This document shows positions 8,637-63,300 of a DNA stretch of 64,000 nucleotides, piece by piece. The number at the start of each line of letters is the position of its first letter. Position 1 is the first letter of the stretch. Below the pieces are notes generated by a model. It worked only from the letters and a program-made list of their open reading frames with translations, did no database searches and was not told where the DNA came from. Where the stretch lies: NCBI RefSeq assembly GCF_963576615.1, contig NC_088711.1:17516182-17580181 (forward strand). Reading direction: 5' to 3'. The position numbers and the translations under genes are program-made. The DNA comes from Watersipora subatra. Its lineage: Eukaryota; Bryozoa; Gymnolaemata; Cheilostomatida; Watersiporidae.

Positions 8637-8840
8637 GAAAAAATGATTTAAAAATAAGCTTTCAAGTTTACTTGAAATGAATTTTGGTAGATATTATTAG
8701 TTATTGTAATTATTGCAGAACTAGTGATGAGAGTAGAAGAAGGTAGCAGGACTATTAGAGCTAGAGCAGCAGAAATGAGTGCAGGTGAAGCGAGAAAGCC
8801 TTTCAGCCTAGATTGGCATATCCATGGTAAACAGAATACA

Positions 8841-9495
8841 AGTAGTATTGTAGTATTGTAGTATTGTGATATTATAGTATTGTGGTATTGTAGTATTGTG
8901 GTATTGTGGTGTTGTAGTATTGTGATAATGTAGTATTGTGGTACTGTAATATTGTGGTATTGTAGTATTGTGGTATTGTAGTATTGTGATAATGTAGTAT
9001 TGTGGTACTGTAATATTGTGGTATTGTAGTATTGTGGTATTGTAGTATTGTGATATTATAGTATTGTGGTACTGTAATATTGTGGTATTGTAGTATTGTA
9101 GTATTGTGGTACTGTAGTATTGTGGTGCTGTAGTATTGTGGTGTTGTAGTATTGTGGTATTGTAGTATTGTGGTATTGTAGTGTTGCGGTATTGTAGTAT
9201 TGTGGTATTGTGGTGTTGTAGTATTGTGGTATTGTAGTATTGTGGTATTGTAGTGTTGTGGTATTGTAGTATTGTGGTATTGTAGTATTGTGGTATTGCA
9301 GTAATAATTGTGATATTGTAGTATTGTGGTATTGTAGTATTGTGGTATTGTAGTATTGTGGTACTGTAGTATTGTGGTATTGTAGGATTATGGTATTGTG
9401 GTGTTGTAGTATTGTGATATTGTAGTATTGTGGTACTGTAATATTGTAGTATTGTAGTATTGTGGTATTGTAGTATTGTGGTATTGTAGTATTGT
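8841..9495. repeat. 8-bp minisatellite (TAGTATTG/TGGTATTG), about 650 bp
   Basis: A long array of 8-bp units, mostly TAGTATTG alternating with TGGTATTG, with GTGATA, GTACTG and GTGTTG variants. Because 8 is not a multiple of 3 and the units lack stop codons on the minus strand, all three minus frames stay open and give long artificial N/T/I/L/Q/Y/H-rich translations. It is not a gene. Confidence 0.95.
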
Positions 9496-11875
9496 GCAAT
9501 CATGCCAGACAGCAATTTTTAATATATCGCCTTCTATATAACAGTATATATACATGTAGATAGTATAAGCTAGTCATAAGCCAGTTCAAGGCATAGTTTA
9601 ATCAACCTCAAATGACTTCAACAAAAATGTTCTTTCAATTTAACTTGTTCTGTGTTACAGAAGCAGTGGGTAATCAACCAGCTGGCTACAATAATAACCA
9701 GCATTAAAAAAACAATTCAACTTTTGCTTTCCATAATTAAAAACCACAAGCTAAGTCGCTTTTGGCCAACTGGCATTGACAAAGTTTGGCCACGTTGTAT
9801 TTCATATACCTTTTTTCTTCACTTATCATCCTCATTTGTTATAGCCTGTGTGTTAATATAAGCCAGAAACATCCTTAATACCACCATTCACAGGCTAATC
9901 CCACGACCAAACACGGGCGGAGCGATTGTTTGGGAGATTTATGATAAATGCATATGTGCACACAACTCACGAAAATTATTCATCAACAGCCATCGCAAAC
10001 CCTTGTACCGAAATCTCATCAACAAATTTAACACTTTTTCAATGGAATCGTTTAAGTGTAATAACGATACAAAACACATATAAACCTATTTAAATATGTT
10101 ACCAAGTCTTTGATATTTGGAGAAAATTTCCTAAACCTTACCCATCTGATCGGATTATACATAAATAGACAGATTAAATTGGCCTTAAAATCGTTATTAA
10201 AACTTGACAAGCCTTATTTTTATCAAAATTAAGACCGGCAAACGAAACGCCGAGTGACAGAGAATAGAACCATGAAGTCGTGCGCATTTCACGTAAAGGA
10301 AACGTGCACATTTCACCAGTCTATCGCTTTGTCAAATTGCCGAAAGTTTCTGTAATTAACGTAGAAGTACTGAAAAGTTATCGTTTCTTTTTTGCCGATT
10401 TCAAAGTAATTGACATTTTGGACACTTACGAGTACTTTGGTATTCCAACTGATGTCCAAAGCAGTGAAAGTAAAGGAAATGGCGATGGTATTTTTTCTAA
10501 CGATTCTTATGAGATTATTACAATATTTAATTATAAGAATAATTATTCGATTTTATAAGATTTAATTATAAGAATAAGCATTCGAATTTACAAGATCAAA
10601 GTATATAGTGACCGGTGTTGGGCAATATGTTACTGTTATTATTTTTTCTAAATAATTTTGTTAAATAGATTTTCTACAAGTCTATAAATATCACAACTTC
10701 TTAATATTGTTAGCTATGACGTTCAGAAATGTAAACAAAATTGTGCATTGGTTTTCTATTATTGCTGTATTACTATATTAATAATATTGGTTATTCTAAT
10801 AATATCAGTGCATTTTACTTCTAATATTGCATTTCTCCTATTGCGGGGGAGAGATATAAACATATAATCTTTTCCTTTTATTATTGCTGTTTGTTGCACA
10901 TAATAACACCCAGTACATTACAGCTACCATTGCAGTTACTCTATTGCACTGCAGTGCCATTTGACTGCTAATATTGCATTTCTCAACCATCAGTACCCTT
11001 TCTTTTTTCTGATATCACTTTGGTCGTGGGCTGTATGACAGGGGAATTTCTAGTTCTAAAAATAAAACTACATAAATAAACTTACATTCTTGATGTTGAA
11101 AGCAGTAATATTCACCAAACTACTTTGTACTTTTAGCCATCATGAACTAGGCTTCAGAGAGAAAATATGCAACTTGTAAGGGAAGCGGGGCTGGTCTACA
11201 ACCCCTCCTACTGTGAGCCTGAGTGGTAGATGTGGCACATCACTAGGCTGTAGCTATTACGTTATGAATATCACAACGTAATAGCTCACTGCTTTGCCTG
11301 AGCATAAGTTAGCAGCCAAGTTCTATTGAGTATGTAATATATTTTATATATAACAAGAACTAGTAGCTTTTGGATTGTAAGTCTGTGATCTTATAAGAAT
11401 GTTTCAACAGCAAAGTCAACTTTCCAAGTAAGTTTTTAAATGACATTCTCAGCCATTTTAATATATAACAAGTTAGAAATTAGTTTTTGTGAATCTCTAT
11501 GTATAACTTTTTTTCTAAATTATTCATCAAACTAAAGCCGAGTTAATGATTTGTATACAAAACTAAAAATGTCCCAAAATAGGGCAATTGTGTTTTTTGT
11601 CCATTTATTGTGAAAGCCAAATATAAATTATATTTTTAAGCTTTGAATACATCAACTGATAGAATAGTTGCTATGTTCTCCATAAACATAGATGTACAAT
11701 TTTTTTAAAATAGTATAATTACAAATAAACTATTATAATTATTCTCAGCTATCTACCCAGTCACCGGCACAGTTGGCAACTTTTATAAAATCTAGTACCC
11801 TGGCAGTCGCGTGAGCTGTGAGAGATCATCATGTGCAATAGCTATGTGCACAATTATTCCTGGATGCAGCATGAG
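9496..11875. other. Intergenic, no gene recognised
   Basis: No supportable exon. It contains a small hairpin at 11252-11286. The frame at 10280-10558 has no ATG start and no family resemblance. Confidence 0.4.
11252..11286. repeat. Perfect 12-bp hairpin
   Basis: Arms AGCTATTACGTT (11252-11263) and AACGTAATAGCT (11275-11286) are perfectly complementary around an 11-base loop. It may be the centre of a small inverted-repeat element; no TIR or target duplication was found. Confidence 0.65.
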
Positions 11876-32615: not shown

Positions 32616-35600
32616 TCATATGCCCTCCAACAACTGGAGAATAGCAGACTTCTGTTTAGACAGTTGTGAACTTCCTAGTCTAGTAAAGTGAAAAGGCATC
32701 CACCACTCCTTCCTGTCCTCCCACTCCTTTGACAAACATTCACAGTCAACCACATCTAATCTAATGACCTCACATAAAAACAACCTAAACTGTGTCCACA
32801 AATCAACATCGTCTCTCCAGCAGGAATAGTCCAGTAAGGAAAAGTAAATGCGTATGATCTCTTTACTGTCACAGGTTATATCCAACTCGCGTATCAGCTG
32901 GAGACATGCCTGTTTGTCTGACGGCCATTTCGAACAATACTCTTCTAGCTCCTTCTTATATGCTTGTTTGTCCCCTTGAGACTCATAGAAGCGAATGAGA
33001 TTGCGATAAGAATTGGGATTGTTCTCGTTTCGCTTTTTGTAGTCTTTAAGCACTTTCAGAGCTGCCGTTTCTCGTCTGCAACATTTTCAATAAAACCTGA
33101 GAAGATACGAGAATGTTTACTTGAGAAGCTCCCTAACTCATATACTGTAATATCCCCTGACAACCTTCAAGATAAGATATCTGCATGACAAATTAACAAT
33201 GCACAGCATATAAACAAGCATTTTCTTATATAAGCTCACAAAAATGACAAAGTGCTTTCAGATTGTCTATAAGTTAGGGGTAGGCGTAAACGCGTTTAGA
33301 ATAAAATCCCGATCGCCTCACAATTCTAGAAAAATTACAGAAGTTGTTGCCCCGATTGGTTACACGCAGGTGACAATAACCGAGTTGAATATGATTGATT
33401 AGCAATAGATAAGAGCAGGTCTGTAGATGCACCATTAAAATTGTAGAATGAGATCCTCACAAATAAATAATACTTTCATCTTCTAATAATAAAATGCTTG
33501 ACACCTAATAATGCATTTGGTCAATGCTAAAGATGTTTTGTATGGAATTTGTTTGTTGCTGTGCTTTAATCAATTAATTAAAAGGGCATAAAGAAGATAA
33601 CTCCAAAGTTAGGAGATATGAATATGACTAAACGATTGCTTATTGTGTACCCCCATTCAATGTATCTTTCAGCTTATGCATAAGGAATCTTGAGCCCTAA
33701 CAAAACATCAGCTTAACATTAGTTTTTCAAAGAGAACAAATTATGTACGAAAAATGTCTGATTAAAAAGCTCAACATTGAGCATATGCAGAATGCAGTAG
33801 CAAGACTAGCTAATGAATCTGGGAAAAACTGGGAGACCCAAAGGGGAAATAGAGGTACCTTAAAAATTCAAGTAGCTCTATCTGGCACGCAATGAACATG
33901 TCCCACACTCCGTTTTGTGATGTGACAGCAGTCAGCTCCGACAAGGCATCTTCAGCCAGAGTCTCATTCTGTTGCTGCTGCGTAAAGTGATGAAATGATT
34001 GGGAAAGACTTCTACTACCGCTCTCTTGTGTCTTTCTCTGCTTCTCAAACTCAAGATAGCTATAAACAATTACAGTATTCGTGAAATGTAGCTCCACTTT
34101 ATCTTTTGTACAATCCGTATTAATACAGTCATAATAAGGCGTTACAGACTAAAATTTTATGTTATATCTTAGCTTACCGAAACAAAACAACCAAAACATA
34201 TCACTGTTAGTGGTACGTTCCAAAATACACAGACTTATCTTGTCATAGAGCAGACAATTCCAACTGGTAACTGGTAACTATGCAACACACCACCTTGAAC
34301 AATTCATTTCAACTATTGAGACTGTTTACCTTTATTAGCATGAAGTCAGCTGGATGCAAGTGTTGAAAAGAACCTGGCATTGAAAAAACCAGTACTGAAA
34401 CCCAACCTATATGGATGAAGTATAACAAAGTAACATTGTTTTATTAATTATTATTTTTAGTGCTACTTTATGTAAAACAATTTTTTTCTAAAAATGATCA
34501 GACGACGGACTGCCCAATATAAGCATATATTTATATATACAGTAGAGCCTTGCCATACGACATTAACCTGCTCAGGTGTCGGCATCATAAGATGAAAATG
34601 CCGCATAGAGCGGTACAGAAACCAATAGTAATTATCTATTGTAAACACCGATTAGCAAAAAATATCAAGATTTTATATAAATATTGTACATATTAAAAAT
34701 TAGTAAGAATATAGCAAATTTACCCACTATACTAATAGTGGGTCATATATAATATATATAACCCATATATATAATAATACATATATAACAATATACTACA
34801 GTTAGCTATAAGTTAACTATAGTTAACTTATAATTGACCTAGTAACTCTAGCTTCGTTGTTGTGGTAATCAGTTTCTCACTTCTCCCTTTAACCTCGTTG
34901 TCAATCTTAGGACCCATGGAAAAGGAATTAAAGATATATACATGTATGCAGTTATATACGTAGGCCTATATTGAATTAAAGTTTATAGTAAATATTATGT
35001 TTAAAACTAGAATGCACAATAAATTTTTACTTTTGTGATTTTGTTTACTTTTCACTTAATTTTTGTTTCACTCACGCAATATCAAGTATTTATGAAACAC
35101 GAAGAATGCTGAACAGAAACAACAAACGAATTTATTATTATTGATGTAATCGAGTCAGCATGGTTTTATGGACACTTTTCTACTGATAACTTGCTATTAT
35201 GGTTTCGTAAAGATCAGGAATGTCAAGTAGTATTAATCAAATAGAAGTGGCGTTCAATTAAAGGGTGTCACTTCGTTTTTCAATCCTTCCCCATAGTGGC
35301 GCTCAAATCGAGGTGGCGTTCAAATAAAGGTGGCGTTCAAATACAGGTTTTACAGTATATATGTAAACTAACTAGCTGTGCTACCCGGCATTGCCCGGGT
35401 AATAAAGTCTTTGGTCAGAAAATTGATTTGTATTTAACATATAACAACATGTGCCATTCTAACTTTCAAACTACATATCATGAGAGAAGTGATTTGTGTA
35501 GTTGAAATAATTTAATAGATTATGTAAACAATATTTTATTTCTCCAATATGTTAAAAAACACTGCCATGCAATAAATTCGATGTATCTATACTTTGTGTA

Positions 35601-38600
35601 TTGATAAAGCGATGTGAAGCTACGATCACTACGAAGCTAAAACGATCCTCTACAACGTTCCTTACTCTTACAAAACTTACTTTCACCACCATCAGAGTGA
35701 GTGCTGCTATTTTACTTATTTGTGTAATCCCGAAATCTGAATCGGCTATAATGCCATCAACATAAGTAAATATTTGTTTTCTAACTTGGGAGGTACTTAC
35801 TAGTGTTGGGCCGGTATTGGGTTATCCGCTCTTACCGATACCGAGGGATTATCGGTATCCGAGGAAACCAATCATTTTCGGTATCAGCTAGGTATCCGCG
35901 GCCGGTTTGATATGATCGGTATTTATCCGTGAAAGCCTATCGGTATATGGTTATATGGATATCCGGAGAGATTTTTAAAACGCTTCATGACGAACATGCC
36001 AATCTGAGCATGCATTGGCGAACAAATTCAACGAAAATTTCCACGCTTACTGTATCTACTATTATATTACGTTACATTGATAATGCCACCAGCCTCGAAG
36101 GTTTGGGAGTTCTACACAGATGGGAGGACGTATAAAGACTCTAACGGGACTGGACTCTAATCGGACTGCGTATAATTATGTGATTACATTACCTGATTAC
36201 AATATGTGATAGTAAGATTTTTTTAAACTGTTTCAGTATATTTAACAAAGAGAGCCCATTGCCATTATCTATCTGTTCCTTATTATACATAACGTTTGTA
36301 TCAATAACGATATTTTTTAATAAAATAAACAATAAAAACATCTATCATGAAAATTATATTTCCATCTTTGTTGGCTTTTTAAAACAAGGAGTCTCTTTGC
36401 CGTAACAATATACTGCTGACTAAAGAATGTTTTTTTTGCACAGGCTACTTTTTGCACAACGATAAAAATTGTTCGAGACAGTTATGATTTAAAGTTTAAA
36501 CCATTTAAAGACACACTGATAACCACATACCGAACAATAGTACTGACAATACCGAACTTTCTTAGTTGGCAAAGGATACCGAAGATGGTAAATACCGAGG
36601 ATACCGATACCGGAAAAACCGATAAAAATGTGCAAGGATATCCGATCCGGCACTAAATTAGATACCGGCCCAACACTAGTACTTACACAAAACTTACAAA
36701 AATGTTGGCTTTTTTTGTAATTGAAATTCTTGCATAGAAGTGTGTGTGTTTAAAAAAGGTTACTGTTCCACCAGAAGATATCCATCAAAACTTTGAATAC
36801 GACAATACTATTATCTCTCGATACTGGTGCAAATGTAAAAATGAGATATCGTACTTTGTCTGACCGGAAGGTGAGAGAATGTTGAGGCTGTTCTCACGAA
36901 TACAGTATACTTGTCCGCGTTGGAAGAATATAGTAATTGAACCTTACGAAAAATATTTCTTAACAGGCGCGTCATCTTTAAAATAATCAGCGTGTGCTAA
37001 AGCTATATCTATAGCCGGAATGCGTACAAATCCACATATGACCTACTTTGAGAAATATATATAGATTCATAAGAAAAACAACAAATTTAAAAGAAGACTT
37101 TCTTGTGAAACTCTGCAAGTTAATTCCTGAGACTACTATCAGAATTTCAGCGGTAATAAACAATCAAGGTTAGAAACAGTCAAGGCTCCATATTGACAAT
37201 ACTATTTACTGGCATGAAAAAACAGCTAAAATTACTAATTGGTCATACCCTTGCATCTTCAGAAGCTGATATAAGGCATAGCAAATATTAGAAGTGAAAA
37301 ATCCTCTTATAGCAAAATGTTTTTACATAATGTACAACAAACTCCAGAGCAACATAAAATATGGGAAACAATGATGGTAAATGTACAAAAGACCAAATCC
37401 GGTAAATAACAACCCAAAGAGTGTCAAAACAGATTCTTATAACCACTGGCAAGTTATGAAAGGATTAGATAATTGGTAATACTGAGAATGTTAACACGTC
37501 AATAGATTCAGATTCATGTAGCTTCAATACTCACTGAGCGAGTCCTTTATATGCTCTGTAAAGCAATGCTATTTGTTCCCTCTGTGCAGCTCCTGTATGT
37601 TCCATCCTTGGAAGATGAGAAATGCATTCTACAGCCTCTTCAACAGTACTTGTGCATAGAGTATGCACGAATTGATCCGAAGTAGCCTGAACATGGTACA
37701 AAAAATTAAACCTGCAGTAGCACGAGGTACAGAACATATTAGGATGAGCAAATGTGTTCATGGTGCATGGTTTTATAAATTATTCTTAAAGGTTTACTTG
37801 AAACAAAATTCACATTACAGTTATTTGGTATCAAAAGGTTCAGCATGTCTTACTCTGCTGTGTGGTAGGTGCAAAATATGTGAAAATGTGATTACAAGCT
37901 CTTAAAAGCTAAAAAACGAACAGTTAATCCCAGCTATCACGAAAACGCCGAAGGTTGGAATCTCTTTATTTCGATGATGTTCTCAGACATCGCGGTTATT
38001 GTTTTGACATGTGATGTTATCGTGTGAATTGAAAGGCCAATAAAAGGCTCAATATAAAACGTCTCGTAGCACTAATTTATGACAAATACCTCGGGTTTTA
38101 CCAAAAAGCCCGTATCAAATATAGATGCCCGGTACTTTACAGTTTCGTTTCAGCCTGATCTAATCATCTAGTCATAATCTAATCTTGTGGCCCATGCTTC
38201 CTGCCAAATGGCGCGAAATATTTCTGCAACATCTTTTTGCTATCACAGGTGACCAACAGGCTCATCATGTTCATCAGAGGATGATATGCACTCCTTCGAG
38301 CTAAGGTTAAAACATTAAACGAATTTTTAGGCTAGGTTTGAGATATCAGTGCTCAAAGTGACAGCATTACAATGATGATGAAATAGACGCATAAGGACAA
38401 TAGACATGGTTTTATTGAATGCCTGAGTATATCTGTGAAAATATTTCGACAAATGAGGTTGCATGAAAATGTAAACGGAAGCCATCGTGTTCAATTACGT
38501 CCCATTTGAGCCTTTTTGGAAAGGGATTCCAATCTACGACGTTTTCGTGATGGCTGCGATTAATTGTTCGTTTTTTAGCTTTTACGAGCTTGTAATCACA

Positions 38601-40647
38601 TTTCCACATATTTTGCACCTACAACACAGCAGAGTAAGACATGGTGAACCTTTTAATACCATATCACTGCAATGTGAATTTTGTTGCAAGTCAACCTTTA
38701 AGGGAATTAGGAAATCAGTTGAGCAAACAGTATCTGTACTGAAGTGGTGAGAAGGCGTCTCTGGACTCATATATTTATTGTGTAAAATTGTGAAATTCAA
38801 TACGCTTGTCTGTTGCCATAAAACAATGGGTAGGAATTGTGGTAAGAAATTGACCATACAGTAGAAATATCGAGACAACCTTCAGATATATCATCCAACC
38901 TTAATAGAGGCGTAACCGCGAAACAACTATAACTACAATGGTTCAGAGTAATACTGAGATGCAGCTTTTGACGTTGCATGATACCTGGATGCAATACAGC
39001 CTACAACGTGTCACAATTTCATAACAAGTTTAAAAGGGGAAGGAACTTCCAACAAGTTTTGATGCACAAAAACATGCAAAACTAATGCTTGTGCATCTGA
39101 TGATTCTGTCATGCTAAACAAATCTATGGCTACATCTGTGAGGGAAGAATAGATCTGTTAGGGAAGATAATCCCGGCTTACAAGGTTATGATTGTTCTAT
39201 TAAATTTACCCCTCACTATCACTATGCCCATACAGCAAAATATGCATAGTTTAGGCTCATACTCTTCAGTTATAAGTATGTCACAGGCGATGAGCAGAAC
39301 CAACCAAATAAGGCTACAACTAAGAAAGAAATGTGCTGCACTTGCATTCAAATGATTTAGTATGTGAGGCCTTTCAGCATATTAATTCATTAAAATTAGT
39401 AATTCATCAATGCAACTATCGTTTAACAAAAACAAATTATTGAATGATATGGCATAGGCCAAATGTGAACACTAAAATAATATGACTAATGAAGGAGGTA
39501 CCGTAACGGAGACCAACCTACGCCAGAACGAGCCAAACCAAGACAACCCTAGCTAGCTCAGCCCAGCCTGGCCTTATATGGAAGGTGAGGCTAACTGCCT
39601 ATGAAAAGACATTGCTTGCAAGCTAGAAGGCAAAGCCCATTTGCGCCTGTTTGTGTTCTGTCGCATGATCCTTATTGTAACTACATACATGTACATAAAC
39701 CAAGCAAATATATATATAGACTCAAAACACACTGAGTTGATCATGTAAAGGCAACCGCACAAACCCTTTACAGTATGACCACTAAAGGAGCTACTGTATG
39801 ACTACTAAAATGTTGGACTACTGAATGAGGATGTAACAAAAAAATTCTTTAATGTTTAAAAAGGAACATCTTTAGTCAAACTAAAACTAAACAAGGATCG
39901 GTTTCTTCAGGCCTGGTATACTGCGCAATGTAAAATACTTGTCTGGGCGATACAATAATATAAACTACATAACTCACCCTTTGTGGGTTTAATGTGGTTC
40001 GTAAACGTCTCAGACTGTGAACAAAGTCAGCTAAAGGAGGCCGAGTAAGGTTTGAAAGATTATACATTATTTCTAATCCAGAACGATATATTGCTGTTTC
40101 GAGAGCTAGTGGCATTTTTACTCGGCATCCTGATACCAAATGTTTAAGAATTTCTATGCATTCTTCATACCTGCAACAAAAACATCGCTTGAAGACTATT
40201 TAGAATTGTAAATTTCCAAAAACTAGATGACAAGGTAATCATTCTATAAAATATTCTGTATATTAATTAAGATCAAAAACTATTTCAACTAAATACCACC
40301 ACACAGAATATTTAGAAAAGAGAGCAAGTGTTTGTGTATTCTGGAAAATCCTCGAAATCTCACCTCATATGAAGAAGAGCATCTCTGAGAAGTGTCAATA
40401 TCTGATATAATGAATTAGCCTGTACTGAATATTTGCCTCGAGCGCCTTCCTTGAAGCTGAAAGTTAAGTTGACTGGAGTGGTCACGGATGCTCGCACTGC
40501 TTCATCAAGTTTGGTTAGCCATTGGTAGTGTTTACTCGCAGTGCCTCGGAGAAGGAGATTGGTCAATTTGACAATTCTGTTTAATACGATACCCGCTTCT
40601 GCGACGTTAAACTCTTTTTCTGATCGTCGAGATTGCTCGCTTTCCAT
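32616..40647 (-). CDS. TAF1A: TBP-associated factor, RNA polymerase I subunit A (SL1/TIF-IB), five exons
   Basis: Minus-strand exons are 40647-40364, 40170-39978, 37686-37535, 34059-33859 and 33075-32616; introns fall in phases 2, 0, 2 and 2. They join without a break into 429 codons plus TGA, close to the 450 aa of human TAF1A. All donors are GT (GTGAG, GTGAGT, GTGAGT, GTACCT) and all acceptors AG. Matches to the family include AYKGL at the end of exon 3, NGVWDMF then QIELLEF in exon 4 (human GVWDPF, VEMLEF), and NPNSY plus EWEDRKEWWMPFHF in exon 5 (human EEWNSRKNWWPGFHF). TAF1A is part of SL1, which recruits RNA polymerase I to rDNA promoters in the nucleolus. The C-terminus lacks the basic tail of the human protein. 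A minus-strand AATAAA lies about 115 bp past the stop (32497-32502). Introns 2 and 3 are loaded with transposons. Confidence 0.93.
34542..34640. mobile_element. Mariner-type MITE end, fragment
   Basis: ACAGTAGAGCCTTGCCATACG resembles the CAGTAGAGxC termini of mariner-type MITEs, followed by GACATTAACCTGCTCAGGTG. No matching opposite end of the same family was found nearby. It lies in TAF1A intron 3. Confidence 0.35.
35220..35357. mobile_element. MITE terminal fragment with GTGGCGTTCAA repeats
   Basis: Three imperfect copies of (G)TGGCG(T/C)TCAA(A/T) lie between 35246 and 35341, then CAGGTTTTACAGTATA, as seen at the end of mariner-type MITEs. The other end is not visible; it may be truncated by the Helitron starting at 35372. 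Confidence 0.4.
35372..37065 (-). mobile_element. Non-autonomous Helitron in TAF1A intron 3, interrupted by a hAT element
   Basis: Read on the minus strand, it begins TCTATATATATTTCTCAAAG just after an A (37065). It ends with hairpin CCCGGGCAATGCCGGG and then CACAGCTAG followed by T (35372). The TC start, 3' hairpin, CTAG end and A/T insertion site are the Helitron hallmarks. Subtracting the nested hAT element (35801-36678) and its duplication leaves about 0.8 kb with no Rep/helicase. Confidence 0.8.
35801..36678. mobile_element. hAT-superfamily non-autonomous element, 878 bp, 8-bp target duplication
   Basis: TIRs TAGTGTTGGGCCGGTAT and its inverse ATACCGGCCCAACACTA are flanked by a perfect 8-bp duplication GTACTTAC (35793-35800 and 36679-36686). 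Many GATACCG/CGGTATC motifs fill the subterminal regions. A short frame near 36084-36155 (ASKVWEFYT, then GRTYKDSNGT) resembles the beginning of a BED zinc finger, found at the N-terminus of hAT transposases, so this looks like an internal-deletion derivative. It is nested in the Helitron. Confidence 0.9.
37790..38697 (-). mobile_element. Kolobok deletion derivative (908 bp), TTAA-flanked, in TAF1A intron 2
   Basis: Begins AGGTTTACTTGAAACAAAAT and ends ATTTTGTTGCAAGTCAACCT, flanked by TTAA at 37786-37789 and 38698-38701. Positions 37790 to about 38155 match the right end of the 52144-56958 element (its 56958-56610, read in reverse). About 38160-38697 matches that element's left end (52144-52680, reversed). 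All coding sequence is missing, with the deletion joint near 38157. It is an internally deleted relative in reverse orientation that could be moved in trans by a Kolobok transposase. Arms diverge visibly from the long copy, so it is not a recent product. Confidence 0.88.
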
Positions 40648-51990: not shown

Positions 51991-52751
51991 AGCACCGGGA
52001 AACATGGTGAACCGATGAAAAGACAAGATGACCAAGCTGCTTATATAGAGAAAGAACTTTTGGGACAGAAGTTGACCTGGAAAAGGTGACAGACACCGTT
52101 TACTAAGCTTTATAGAATTTTTTCTGCAAATGACAATCTTTAAAGGTTGACTTGCAACAAAATTCACATCACAGTTATTTAGTATCAAAAGATTCACCAT
52201 GTCTTACTTGTTTGTGGTGTAGGTGCCAAATATGTGGAGATGTGATTAAAAGCTCTTAAAAGCTAAAAAACGAACAAAAAATCGCAGCCACACAAGACTG
52301 CCGTAGTTTGGATTCATTTCCCAAAATGGCTAAAATGTGACATAGTTGTGCGAGATGGTTTCTGTTTACACTTTCATGCAACCTTATTCGTCAAAATATT
52401 TTTACAAATATACTTCACGCTTGCAATAAAAACCATGTCTATTGTTCTTACGCGTCTATTTTAGCGGCATCGTAATGCTGCAACTTTGAGCACTGATATC
52501 TCAAAACCTACCATAAAAATATGTTTAATTTTTTAATATTAGCTTGAACAATTGCATATCATCTTCTGATAAACATGATGAGCCTTTTGGTCCGCTGTGA
52601 TTGTCAAAAAATGCTGTGGAAATTGTTCGCGCCATATGGCGGAAATTGTAAGTCACATGATCAGATAATGTTAGTTTCAGTTCAAGTTTGATCTATCGCA
52701 AATAGCAGACACGCTTTCTTGTATTAAACTTGTTAATTTCAATTCGTCATA

Positions 52752-54731
52752 ATGTCTAACGCGCCACATCGTGTTTGTGCAGCTGCCAAGCTGAGAAGCA
52801 CCTTTTTTCTTGGCCAAGAGCAGAAAAAAGACCAAACCTTCACCAGGGCGTGGAGCAACTGGGTGAAGCTGGATGTGACAAACTTTATTTATTCGCCTGC
52901 TTACTCTTACCTTTGTTTTCTCCATTTCAAAGACGACATGTTTTCTAACCGGTTTGCATACTCCACATGTCACCAAAGCACGTGAGTAATTTATTTTATA
53001 AACTACTTGTATTAGTAGTAGTAACTCAGGTTATTTTCTAGTATTCTCCTAATACTACTGTATTAATCTATATTTAATATTACAACATTAATGTCATTTA
53101 ATAGTAATATGATATTATTAGTATTTTATCTTTTTAATTACATGTATTATTCTTATTATAATAACAAAACTAATTCATACTGCATATCTATCTGTAAAAC
53201 GTAATATATTAATCTATAATTGATAAAATAACGTTATAAGTTTCACGATTAATTTCGCCAAATTTCTTAACCCCACTCACTTATAGATATGTTATATAAA
53301 ATAGTTATTGTCATTTTCTGGTATCATCGTTAATAGCATATTAATATTATTAGATGATTATTATTAGTATTAGATGATGAAGAGTTTGTGCCAACCACTG
53401 AAGACTGGGAAGAGTTTGAGCGCTATGTTGGCCAGCGTCAAACGCTCTCCAATTACATGTAAGATGGAGCTGAACTTAACCAAACTTGACAAAATATAAA
53501 GAATATCCATAGAGTTATTACTCACATTTTTATGTTTACAATATCATGGATTCTGATAAGGTTTTGTAAAATCTGTGTCATGATTGCATGGCTATATATT
53601 TATTCTTTTTCTGATCAAGCAAATATGATATAAAAACTGGAAATGATGTTGTACAAATCTTATTGCAAGTCAACTATTGTGTTGTGATTTCAGACCCGAA
53701 TCCTCCTTCAAAGAGGAAAAAATAATAGTAAGTGTGACAGCACTCCAGCGACTATTTCACTGTCACGCCTGCGCCCTCCCCTGCTCATTCACGATGGTGC
53801 GAGAAGGCGGGTGGGTAGAGTTCAAGGTTACATGTGCCTCCTGTCACCAATCGTACACTTGGGAAACAACTGCCAGGGTGAACAGAGCTCACGTCATCAA
53901 CCCCCTGCTGGCAGCTGCATCACTCTTTTCTGGCTGATGCCTTAGGCAGAACCTCCGTTTTCTGTCGCTCCTGAACATCGCGATACCAAGCCCCAGCGTT
54001 TGCCTCAACCAACAAAGAAAATACTTATATGGTGTGAGTGTTAATATTTACCCATAAACTTGGAAAATGTGAGTAAAAGCTTGGCACACTAATTGAATAA
54101 CGACATTTAGAAACAATTTTTTTCTTGAAATGAAAATATGTCATCCTTCAAGCGAAATATATTATAATTTAAAATTCTGATTCTTCATCATAATATAGCA
54201 CAAAAAGGGGGAAGAGAATTCTACATTCTTAGACTAATGATAATGATACAAATTAATCTTGTATAATGAAGTTGTACAATATTTTACAGTGTATTGCTGA
54301 GCAGTACACCCTGCATAACGAGGGATTGATGGCAGCAATCGATTGGGAGCTTGATTTGGCAGGTGACGGTAGATGCGATAGTCCGGGGCATTGCGCACTA
54401 TACGGGGCCTACACTATGATGGATCAGAGCTGCGGTTTAATAGTCAGCAGCCATCTTGTCAAGGTAAAACTTTGACAGTTTTTACTTCACAGCCTGACAA
54501 AAACCCAAATTTTTTAGTAGTTATCAATACATAAACATGAAGTTGCTGATCTAGCTAAATAATTCATTCAAATAATGTGAAAGTGATTGTTGGTTGTAAC
54601 TTTCTTTACATTGCAGTCAACGGAGACCACCAGCTCTAACGCCATGGAGCTGGAAGGCTTCAAGCGATGCTCGTCCGATCTAATTTTCCACGGCCTGAGA
54701 GTGAGGTCCATTACAACGGATGTTGTTACAA
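52752..54731 (+). pseudogene. Kolobok transposase with N-terminal THAP-like domain, inactivated and truncated
   Basis: Exon 1 (52752-52981, donor GTGAGT) begins MSNAPHRVCAAAKL and ends with YLCFLHFKDDMF, a THAP C-x2-H block; the second Cys of the usual first pair is not evident. A second coding block (to 53458, EEFVPTTEDWEEFERYVG) cannot be joined to exon 1 in frame. Exon 3 (53694-54033) has a cysteine-rich block (CHACALPCS, CASCHQSYTW) and LLAAASLFSG, an in-frame TGA (53935-53937), then LRQNLRFLSLLNIAIPSPSV in the same frame. Exon 4 (54290-54463) encodes LAGDGRCDSPGHCALYGAYT, containing a likely catalytic D. Exon 5 (from 54617) encodes SSNAMELEGFKR and RSITTD, likely around a second catalytic acid. 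Homology then stops at the inverted-repeat insert; the rest of the catalytic domain is absent. The element would need a transposase from elsewhere. Confidence 0.75.
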
Positions 54732-54929
54732 AGGTTGTGTGCATACCGCAAGCTTGTGTTTTGGCTTATGCCGCAAATTCGTCGCGGTGAGCGACGGCCT
54801 CTACCTGCTGGCTTGGTGTCTAAGATTCGGGCTCTTTTCTCACCAACGGATGATGAAGAAGAGTTTGCAGACTTGCAAACAAGATTTGCGGCATAAGCCA
54901 AAACACAAGATTGAGGTATGCACACAACC
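54732..54929. mobile_element. Nested inverted-repeat insert (198 bp) in the Kolobok transposase
   Basis: Left arm 54732-54779 (AGGTTGTGTGCATACCGCAA...) and right arm 54881-54929 (inverse, ...GGTATGCACACAACCT) are nearly complementary over about 47 bp. The ~100-bp centre is GC-richer than the surroundings. It interrupts the transposase just after SITTD. No target duplication is clear, so it could be a MITE or a rearranged segment. Confidence 0.6.
54768..54896 (+). other. Small ORF (42 aa) across the inverted-repeat insert
   Basis: It runs from ATG in the left arm to TAA in the right arm: MPQIRRGERRPLPAGLVSKI, then FSPTDDEEEFADLQTRFAA. A basic first half followed by an acidic, helix-like second half looks protein-like. 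No family is recognised, and it may be a captured exon piece. Confidence 0.3.
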
Positions 54930-55229
54930 TTTTCCGAGCATTTGGCGATGGCTCTCCAAATGGGAATAGATTATCTACCAAAACAATTATTGAAAAACAA
55001 TAATTGCTGATCAAAATAATCTCGATCTTTATATAATAAAATCATAAAACTAATACACTCTACTGTAGTGAGTGTACAAGCCAAATATAACAGTTCTCCT
55101 TGTGTTCCACGAGTTCAGAATATGTGTGTTCAACCGATGCATTAAATGTGTAACACAAGAATTGTAGATAATGCTTGACACATTAGCATAGCTTTGGTGT
55201 TGTTGGCATTAAATGAAAATCCAACTCAC

Positions 55230-56562
55230 TATGATATCGCAGGTAATTATTCCACCCCAACTCAAGGGGTGCAGGCGCCACAAGTTCGTCTACACCAGGA
55301 TGCATACACGGGCATTCATGCTCCCCGCGGTCATGGAGACGATGCGCAAACTCAGCATCATGGCAGCACAAACATTCAGGAAGAGATGGCATGTCTTGAC
55401 AGCGCTTGCAGACACACCACTCTGTAGCCGGTGGTATTAGCTCCTAAAGAAATGAACAGATATGTCCACAGGTGTCCTTTAGCGGGATATTGCCAAAGCC
55501 AAGACCAAGCCGTAGTCTACACACACAAAAAACAACAAAGGTCCACGTAGTTATGAGCAAAAACAAAAGTATCCACCCAAATATCTCACCAATGCAATGA
55601 GCAGCACACACAAAAACTAAACCAATCGACAGAGCCACCCATCATGTCAAAATATTCCAAGTTTCAAGTCATGTCTTGCACAACTCACCTTATGGTTTCT
55701 CAAAACTTGTCCCAAAGTCCCTATTAATTTGAGACTGTCCAATTGCTGTTTTAGAAATGGTCGTCGCTAGCCTAACCTAATGTCCTGATTCAACATCTCA
55801 CCAACTATCGGGGCATTGCTAAAAGAGGGAATCAAAAAGTTCGGGGCACTCAGCAATGCCCCGATAGTTACTGAGATGTTGAATTAGGGCGTTAAGCTAG
55901 GCTAGCGGCGACCATTTCTTAAACAGCAATTGGACAGTCTCAAATTAATAGGGACTTTGGGACAAGTTTTGAGAAACCATAAAGTGAGTTGTGCAAGACA
56001 TGACTTGAAATATTTTGACATGATGGGTGGCTCTGTCAATTGGTTTAGTTTTTGTGTGTGCTGCTCATCGGATTGGTGAGATATTCGGGTGGATACTTTT
56101 GTTTTTGCTCATAACTACGTGGACCTTTGTTGTTTTTGTGTGCATGTAGACTACGGCCCGGTCTCGGCTTCGGCAATATCCTGCTAAAGGACACCTGTGG
56201 ATATGTCTATGCAACCATAGCTAATACATCAGGTCGATGTTATCCAACAGTATATCAGTGCAGCACTAGATCTAAATATTAAAATTGTTAATGTTGTCAT
56301 TCGAGAAAAATCTGTAATTATTTTTTCGAATTATTTTTTCGCAATATGAAGCGATAATTATCATCATTAAAATCATATATATATATAATAATATTCGTTC
56401 TATCACTCTCTAGCTAAAACTATTACTACTAGCTAGCTTGGCACATAAGAGCTGGCTAGTGGCGGTGCTTACTTGCTGGGAGGTTTGATTCTGATGAGGA
56501 TCTTCTTCAGATAGAGCATCAGGCTCGAAACGCCAGGGTCTTAACTCTTCAGAATTTGACAT
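55230..56562 (-). CDS. P2X7-type cysteine-rich (ballast) domain protein of the Kolobok element, partial
   Basis: Exon 1 (56562-56473, 30 codons) starts MSNSEELRPWRFEPDALSEE with a clean GTAAGC donor. Exon 2 (55443-55230) starts after TTTCTTTAG in the same phase. It encodes EWCVCKRCQDMPSLPECLCC, the WCxCxxCxxM(P)xxxExxCC signature of the P2X7 intracellular zinc-binding domain, then further Cys/His (CHDAEFAH, ECPCMHPGV). The donor after RYH-A is GTGAGT, phase 1. Later exons, where related proteins continue with an RWCWG-type block, are not found before the truncated transposase, so the gene seems 3'-truncated. Many invertebrate ballast-domain proteins are annotated 'P2X7-like' without any channel domain. 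Here the gene is clearly inside a TTAA-flanked transposon and convergent with its transposase. Its role in the element is unknown. Confidence 0.75.
55460..56206. repeat. Foldback palindrome, two ~355-bp arms
   Basis: The left arm (about 55460-55820) and right arm (about 55852-56206) are inverted copies with a ~31-bp spacer. The inner edges read GGGGCATTGCT and AGCAATGCCCC; the outer edges read TCCACAGGTGTCC and its inverse. Scattered substitutions between the arms (for example AGCGGGATATT versus AGCAGGATATT) argue against a recent assembly artefact. It fills most of intron 1 of the ballast-domain gene. A transcript through it would form a long dsRNA hairpin. Confidence 0.88.
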
Positions 56563-57167
56563 TTTTATGATCGCAGCTCAGACATGTACACGCACGTTAA
56601 ATTGTCGGACGGAATGGCCAAGCTGAAACTGTAAAGTAGCGAGCATCTATATTTGATATGGGGTCTTAGGTAAAACCCGAAGTGTTTGTCATAAACTATT
56701 GCTACGATAAGTTTTATATTGAGCTTTTTATTGGCCTTTCAATTCACGCGAGAACATCACGTGACAAGACAATAACCAAAATCCGTGGATACGTCATCGA
56801 AATCAAGAGATTTCAATCTACGGCGGCTTTTCGTTTTTGAGCTTTTAAGAGCTTGTAATCACATTTTCACACATTTGGCACCTACAACACAACAGAGTAA
56901 GACATGGTGAATCTTGATACCAAATAACTGTAATGTGAATTTTGTTGCAAGTCAACCTTTAAAACAAATTTATTCCTGCTGTTTACATGCTAGTTAAAAT
57001 TTATTTATGTTTATGATTGCTTATCGAAGTAGTATAGGTATCTCTTCCAATTAGTTACTAGCTGGTAATATTCCTGTAAGTAATATTTTTACATTTGCCT
57101 TCATACCTTTTCTCGAGACTACTTTTTTGTTTTATTAGTTCTTGAGAGTACTGTTCCCTACATATTA

Positions 57168-60390: not shown

Positions 60391-63300
60391 ACTTGGCTTA
60401 AGAGGAATGTGCTTGAGTTTGAAATCCTTGAAACAATCAGAAAATGCGACAAAATTTCAATGGTTTTTGATTGGTGCTCAAACGCCACACTTCTGTTCGA
60501 GTGGTTTGGTATTTTAGAAATGGTGTGCAAGACTTTGGATGATGATTTAGCACAAGAGCAAATGGATGAAGTAAAATGTACTCTCAACGATCTTATTGAT
60601 GCCGTAACAATGCCTAAAACTATGTGTCATCATGAAATGGGAGTAACACCACTGTGTCAAAATACACTCCTAGAGAAATCGCTGTCTACTGACAATTCTG
60701 AGAGTCATGACTGTGAGATAATAGCTGCTTCAAGTAATGCAGTCCAAACTCAATTGACAAACAAGATAGTTTGTTTGACTGAAGCAACTAAATCTGCCAT
60801 TAGTGAAAATGTGACACCAGTGAAATCAGAAACAGGGATGTTGGTCAATTTGCAAATAGAAAAGCCGGTTGCCAATAAACAACTGGGAGATAATGCTGGT
60901 TCTGTGCCTATTGAGACTTCGCGTGAAGTTAAATTTAGCCCGCAAATCCAGGTATGCACTAATTCTTTAATTATCACGGCTTCTAACACTAGAGACAATG
61001 ATTTTACACAATGCAACATGATCGATGATATAAGCACAGTTTCTGTGCCTACCCATCTTATGAAAGATCAGGACACTAGTTGTGTGAGCAGAACTACCGA
61101 AAATTGTTTAAGCTCCTATCACTCAATGAAACAATCTGATTCTAAAGATAAGGTAACTTTTAGCGAAATCAGTCCTGGCTTGCGAATTGTGGAAGATTTC
61201 AAATCTGTGGTTACATCCCCTTCTGCGGATGTGACAAATGGTTTACATGCATTAAACGCCAACATCGATGATGTTGATAAAAAAAAATTTAGCGAGAAAA
61301 CTAACTATCACAAAGAAAATGTCAAGGCCACCGATATATCTGTCTCTGCATCCACATCAAACTTGACCCAACTGGATGAAAAATCTGTCACATCAGACAC
61401 TGTGACTACAGGTAGTTTGCATGTTGCTGCAAGCTCTAATTACTCAACCATTCCCATCTTTGACCCCAACAGGAGTAACTTAGAAGAATGTAACAGTATT
61501 GGTGAATCAGAAGCATCCATAGCGAGAACTCACATAACACATAAAAAAGGCATGAAAGTGTTAACCACTCTACCAGAAGCTGTCTCAAGTCTATGCCAAC
61601 TAGAGTGGCCACATAGTGATGCTCTTGTATGTTCTTCAAAGGAACACATATCCAGTAATCAGCTTTCAACTATTGATACCATGATCAAAGGCTCAATGCA
61701 GGAGAATACAAAATATTTAGATGCAAGTACAGTTTTTGAGGCAAAAGAACAAACTTCAAGGCTAGGTCAAGCCAAGTCTCCAGGAAGCTATGGGAAATTT
61801 CTCTTGAACCATCACAGTGAAACTTGTGGAATGCAGCACCATTCTCTATTGATTGTAAAGAATGCTTCAAATGACCAGCAAACTTCCGGAAATGAAAAGG
61901 TTGCGGCTGAAGTTGCAAAAGCTGTAAATATCAACCTAGATGTTTTTCAGGTCTCCTCAGAAAAATCTGGTTACAGTGAAGTTGCTGGTGGCTCAGCAAA
62001 TACATTAAATAAGGTGGGCTTTATCATTGAGTAGAGGAACTGTATATTGAAAAAGTGAAAATGGTTCCTATCGAAATTGAATCTTCTTGTTAGTGTCATA
62101 AATAAATCTTTGTTATCTAACTATATCAAGATAAGACACAAAGTTTGATTTCAGATTCCAAATTTGTTTTAGATTTCACAATCGCTGGGTTCAATGCTGA
62201 ACAGTACAGTTAAAGAAAAGCCTCTACCTCAAAATAGCGATGAATTTCTTTTAACGCTTTCTCAGCTTAACGCAGCCTTATCTGAGACAATGTCTATAGT
62301 AATTTGGAGGATGCTTGCTGATAAAAATACAGTCAACAAATTGTTGTTTGAAGGCGTAAGTTTTATATATATAGTACTTTATTGGCAATAATTTCATTTC
62401 AAAAATAGAAATGTTTTTTAAATTAGACCATGTCAGGATAGGCCATGTTTTAAGAAAATAGAGCTGTTCAGGATGAATAAGCTTATAATTTTTATTCATT
62501 ATTTTAGTTTAACATAGGGAAGATAACTTTGGTATTGAGATAATTCCAGTTACTTGGTTCTATGGAAGTTTACATGCTTAATTTAAAAAATTTAGCAAAA
62601 CATTTTACATTCATTCCTCTTTGATTTTGAATTTTAAATCTGGCATATCTGTTCTTGACTTTGAAATACCTAGCGAAGCTTTAGCTCTCAAACTGCAGTG
62701 ACAGTATCTGTCCAAGAAAAAAATGGTTTGGCTGTTGACAATGTCCCTGCCAACCGTCTCGAGAATGATTGCATCAATGAGATTGCCTACCAACAGCTGC
62801 AACTGAAAAGTAATGAATCATAAGCAGGGCGTAGTATAGTGCCCTTTAGTAGGTAAATTTGTTCATCATTGAATGTAAACAACATGTATTATTGCATATA
62901 CCAAAGTAGGCTACTATCTTTTTTATGTAGGATGCGATTTTTGTTTTCAAAATGATATTTCAATACAATGATTATTGCTCAAGCTTAACATAAGGGATTA
63001 TTCGTAATATAAACACTCAGCTAGTATAATACACTTCTATTTCTCAATTATCAGGCATACCTGCATTTATTTATGCATTATCAAATACATGCAAGCTTTG
63101 GCTTCCTCAAAGATGTTCTTTTTAAGATATGTAAAGATTTCTTTTTTCTTATCGCTTTGCATTTTTTGCATCTATCGTTTGCATTATCTTTGTCAAAGTG
63201 CTGTATGTTACAGGGTGAGCTCGACAACTACTTGCAAAATATCATTGGAACGATAACTTTGTTTTCTGAACACAGGGATCAAGTGCTTTTAAGTGACCAA

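Follow-up and report, generated by a model that had tools for sequence, protein, structure and literature searches.

Kolobok transposases have a THAP character. They are DDD/E transposases that carry a C/DxxH motif, nearly every lineage also has a zinc finger between the second D and the E, and the elements end with 5'-RR and YY-3', which is a difference from piggyBac (Kojima & Bao 2022, PMC9587614). According to the main text of that paper, from which the word THAP is absent, transposons of the Kol0 lineage encode the transposase together with a second protein, KolX, and this make-up occurs in vertebrates, annelids, cnidarians and sponges. KolX resembles the C-terminus of P2X7 (residues 476-595), which has the cytoplasmic ballast fold. 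P2X7 is described there as the product of a P2X4-like gene that fused with KolX, and Nanor as a likely domesticated KolX (PMC9587614). Ballast domains occur across Metazoa, and in animals ranging from sponge to sea urchin the genes for them are linked to two markers, a linkage that was read as ancestral synteny (Rump et al. 2020, PMC7016195). No word starting with 'transpos' is found in the main text of the latter work. An Ixodes protein is mentioned there whose ballast cysteines are preceded by a 'TAHP' domain (PMC7016195), which would fit a transposon origin if THAP was meant.

The window studied here, i.e. the whole stretch of 64 kb of DNA that was analysed, contains an element at 52144-56958 and a shorter one with the same tips at 37786-38701. 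With a probability of about 90%, the former is a Kolobok cut-and-paste DNA transposon of the Kol0 lineage that persists as a dead copy in an animal genome, and the latter is its non-autonomous sibling. This reading is supported by the TTAA sites, the terminal inverted repeats (TIRs), the AG...CT termini, a sub-threshold THAP match, a P2RX7_C match of a joined protein, the gene pair known from PMC9587614 and the deleted sibling. With Kol0 elements with KolX of the Kolobok-1_XT type, as described in PMC9587614, the element shares the TTAA duplication, the RR...YY termini and the combination of a transposase with a ballast-domain KolX. It differs from them in being degenerate, with a stop codon, a missing transposase 3' part, an inverted KolX 3' part and a nested foldback element.

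The element is enclosed by TTAA at 52140-52143 (left) and at 56959-56962 (right), read directly at its edges; the 4-bp TTAA target-site duplication of Kolobok is thus present. The left TIR (52144-52274, + strand, 131 nt) with the tip AGGTTGACTTGCAACAAAATT aligned with the right TIR (56830-56958, - strand, 129 nt) with 120 identities. In a repeat search, the arms measured 50 nt (96%) and 86 nt (90%). The termini AG...CT follow the 5'-RR/YY-3' rule of Kolobok (PMC9587614). The original prediction, made from the letters of the sequence, had claimed TTAA on both sides, TIRs of ~130 bp with their tips and the limits 52144 and 56958. The sites and repeats were found as described, and the limits were right to within one base. 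When the 25-nt tip including TTAA was searched in the 64-kb window with up to 3 mismatches, it was detected four times (three exact, one with 2 mismatches), and the mean was 0 in 100 shuffles used as control.

Transposase-like open frames span 52752 to 54721 on the + strand. The exon 1 region (52752-52985, its end being the end of the open frame) encodes an N-terminal THAP-like domain. Against Pfam THAP, this open frame alone scored 16.3 bits (E 0.017) and the first and second exons joined 18.7 bits (E 0.003), both below the cut-off of 23.9. The exon 2 region (DEEFVPTTEDW...) is an open frame at 53376-53458 (+ strand, limits approximate). The exon 3 region with CxxC pairs (53695-54033, + strand, limits approximate) is broken by an in-frame TGA at 53935-53937 (FSG*CLRQ), and its frame gave only sub-threshold matches to the unrelated Pfam families Zn_ribbon_Elf1 (19.0 bits, cut-off 29.8) and Cytochrom_C552 (13.1 bits, cut-off 24.1). 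By its motif, a further exon at 54290-54463 (+ strand, limits by eye) was taken as the first-D region. It contains LAGDGRCDSPGH at 54356-54391 (+ strand), which had already been noticed in the transposase in the original prediction and which we take to be the Kolobok first-D signature. A literature search for the motif letters DSPGH, judged by titles and abstract openings, found no transposon link.

The last surviving transposase piece is an open frame at 54617-54721 (+ strand) that ends with ...GLRVRSITTD. Neither this piece nor the exon with LAGDGRCDSPGH had a match in Pfam, and the sub-threshold THAP score is the only match of the transposase to the family models apart from the unrelated sub-threshold matches of exon 3. 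Between the end of ITTD (54721) and the KolX-like piece that follows, only 7 bases are left. Stops interrupt the + strand frames of 54894-55260 and 56207-56480, in which no transposase was recognisable by eye. It is therefore most likely that the copy at 52144-56958 lacks the remainder of the catalytic domain. An intact autonomous element was ruled out by the stop codon in the transposase and its missing end.

The second gene is encoded convergently. KolX exon 1 (MSNSEELRPWRFEPDALSEEDPHQNQTSQQ) lies at 56473-56562 on the - strand and is followed by a donor-like GTAAGC. Exon 2 (55443-55230, - strand) is preceded by TTTCTTTAG and followed by GTGAGT; it encodes the cysteine-rich ballast-like domain (WCVCKRC...CLCC...CPC), in agreement with the WCVCKRC...CLCC reported earlier for the minus strand. 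The C-terminal piece of KolX (QRLCAYRKLVFWLMPQIRRGERRPLPAGLVSKIRALFSPTDD...) is inverted and was found at 54729-54893 on the + strand. A partial KolX piece (KRLCAYLNLVFWLMPQI) has kept the original orientation at 54883-54933 (- strand) and is an inverted duplicate of 54730-54778; the open frame around it had no Pfam match of its own.

Against Pfam P2RX7_C (cut-off 23.5), 13.1 bits were obtained for 55221-55443 alone, 18.4 bits (E 0.0022) for exons 1 and 2 joined and 12.6 bits (E 0.13) for the inverted piece at 54729-54893 alone, all below the cut-off. Exons 1 and 2 joined with the inverted piece reached 27.2 bits (E 4.3e-6) in two stretches and thus exceeded the cut-off, with a protein that was joined from both strands and of which every uninterrupted piece stays below it. 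Also below the cut-off, the separate pieces match the profile positions 79-101 and, for the inverted piece, 146-186, which is the right order. Of 10 shuffled versions of the joined protein, none matched P2RX7_C, and two gave matches below threshold to different families (DUF4462 and Tantalus). The P2X7-type assignment that had been proposed for the minus-strand exons is supported by Pfam above the cut-off for the joined protein and below it for the unjoined exons. By the joined protein, the second protein of Kol0, a KolX like the P2X7 tail, is present. When the joined KolX was used to search the sequences in PDB, there were 0 matches at E up to 10, and P2X7, which was presumably included, was also unmatched. 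The relation between KolX and P2X7 is therefore based on the Pfam profile and on how the cysteines are spaced. Among viral contigs, one stretch with a match to a peptide pattern was found, and none of them encodes a KolX relative.

In a comparison by eye with the letters of P2X7, whose ballast domain has seven conserved zinc cysteines, CxCxxC, CC and one later C are present, and the last one (LPSC) reads LPAG. The cysteine after LP(S/A), which is C572 as aligned by eye, is thus a glycine here, in contrast to P2X7. The likeness to the P2X7 ballast or NANOR-like family (Pfam PF20478; PANTHER PTHR36981, as named in PMC7016195) comprises CxCxxC...CC and an RxCAY...P...IR tail, both seen by eye, as well as the two ordered Pfam stretches of the joined protein. 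Unlike in P2X7, no P2X channel part was found in the element.

It had been proposed that both genes are located in one element. The convergent arrangement of transposase (+ strand) and ballast gene (- strand) was retained, but their intactness was not, as there are only fragments and the end of the ballast gene is now on the + strand. KolX intron 1 contains a nested foldback element of 735 bp at 55466-56200 (no strand assigned) with the tip CCACAGGTGTCC, flanked by the 6-bp sequence ATATGT at 55460-55465 and 56201-56206. Owing to its own ends and the 6-bp flanking repeats, this long palindrome was ruled out as the transposon's own structure and was counted as separate from the Kolobok structure. 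The foldback element was not found elsewhere in the 64-kb window when the whole Kolobok copy was subjected to a BLAST search against it.

The second copy in the window (37786-38701 including TTAA, - strand) was detected by the tip search and BLAST. It is internally deleted and contains neither gene; its retained ends measure ~530 bp (left) and ~340-360 bp (right), both with ~82% identity. Gene remains are thus carried by one of the two elements with these tips within the window. The original prediction had named copies lacking the minus-strand gene as evidence against itself. Formally, 37786-38701 is such a copy, but the transposase is gone from it as well as KolX, and so it is read as an internal-deletion derivative. 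A non-autonomous derivative of 0.9 kb is the usual picture, and that copy does not refute the view that a full element includes KolX.

The pair of genes could also be accidental if, in this genome, a ballast-domain gene of the host had been captured by a Kolobok element. Such a capture would be in line with the linkage of ballast genes to the two markers mentioned above (Rump et al. 2020, PMC7016195) and with the single element in the window that carries both genes. However, transposase and KolX together are the make-up of Kol0 from vertebrates and annelids to cnidarians and sponges (PMC9587614), and we consider the capture to be improbable. A piggyBac element in place of a Kolobok is in our view even less probable, although piggyBac likewise has TTAA as target. 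The transposase found here has a THAP-like N-terminus, which is not known from piggyBac. A few piggyBac families do encode a KolX-like protein, but without most of the seven conserved cysteines (PMC9587614), whereas the exon found here keeps CxCxxC and CC. Furthermore, the termini are RR...YY (AG...CT), a stated difference from piggyBac (PMC9587614), and the termini other than RR...YY that piggyBac has at TTAA were not found here.

For the preferred reading as a Kol0-lineage Kolobok transposon, the intact ancestor would have encoded a THAP-type DDD/E transposase, tail to tail with KolX. Its transposase would bind to the inverted repeats of ~130 bp, cut the element out and integrate it at TTAA. 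KolX of the ancestor was presumably a small zinc-binding protein with the P2X7-ballast fold and may have acted as accessory factor of transposition, perhaps one that binds to DNA or to protein within the transposition complex. Concerning the decay of the copy at 52144-56958, the simplest reading is a single deletion-with-inversion: we infer that one event removed the 3' part of the transposase and turned the C-terminal exon of KolX round. The foldback element would have inserted in KolX intron 1, and the 0.9-kb sibling would have formed as a non-autonomous derivative.

The original prediction had inferred that the ballast protein is a transposon gene and had suggested a transposon source for the P2X7 tail. 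Both agree with Kojima & Bao 2022 (PMC9587614), which provides the main support; our own evidence consists of one degenerate copy. The central idea is not new because it is already in print in that paper; both the link between the second gene and P2X7 and the idea of a transposon source of the P2X7 tail date from its publication in 2022, and no new principle is added here. At this locus, KolX, the named source of the P2X7 tail (PMC9587614), was encountered independently, starting from raw sequence. For annotation, it is a warning that invertebrate 'P2X7-like' genes are worth checking for surrounding TTAA and inverted repeats. The two-marker linkage of ballast genes in Figure 6 of Rump et al. 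2020 (PMC7016195) might in fact be a linkage of KolX to the transposase of the same transposon. The wider claim that most invertebrate 'P2X7-like' genes are transposon KolX genes, and that this two-marker synteny is at least partly KolX-transposase linkage and not host synteny, is tentative, and we lean somewhat against it.

Some other features were observed in the window. An open frame at 32616-33086 matched TAF1_subA, an RNA polymerase I factor, with 65.3 bits in Pfam; it is a host gene and fits a eukaryotic host, and KolX together with the literature points to an animal. On the - strand, repetitive open frames with YHNTTILQ-like units at 8808-9518 are probably simple repeat DNA. An open frame of 547 residues is located at 60391-62034 on the + strand and showed no significant Pfam family.
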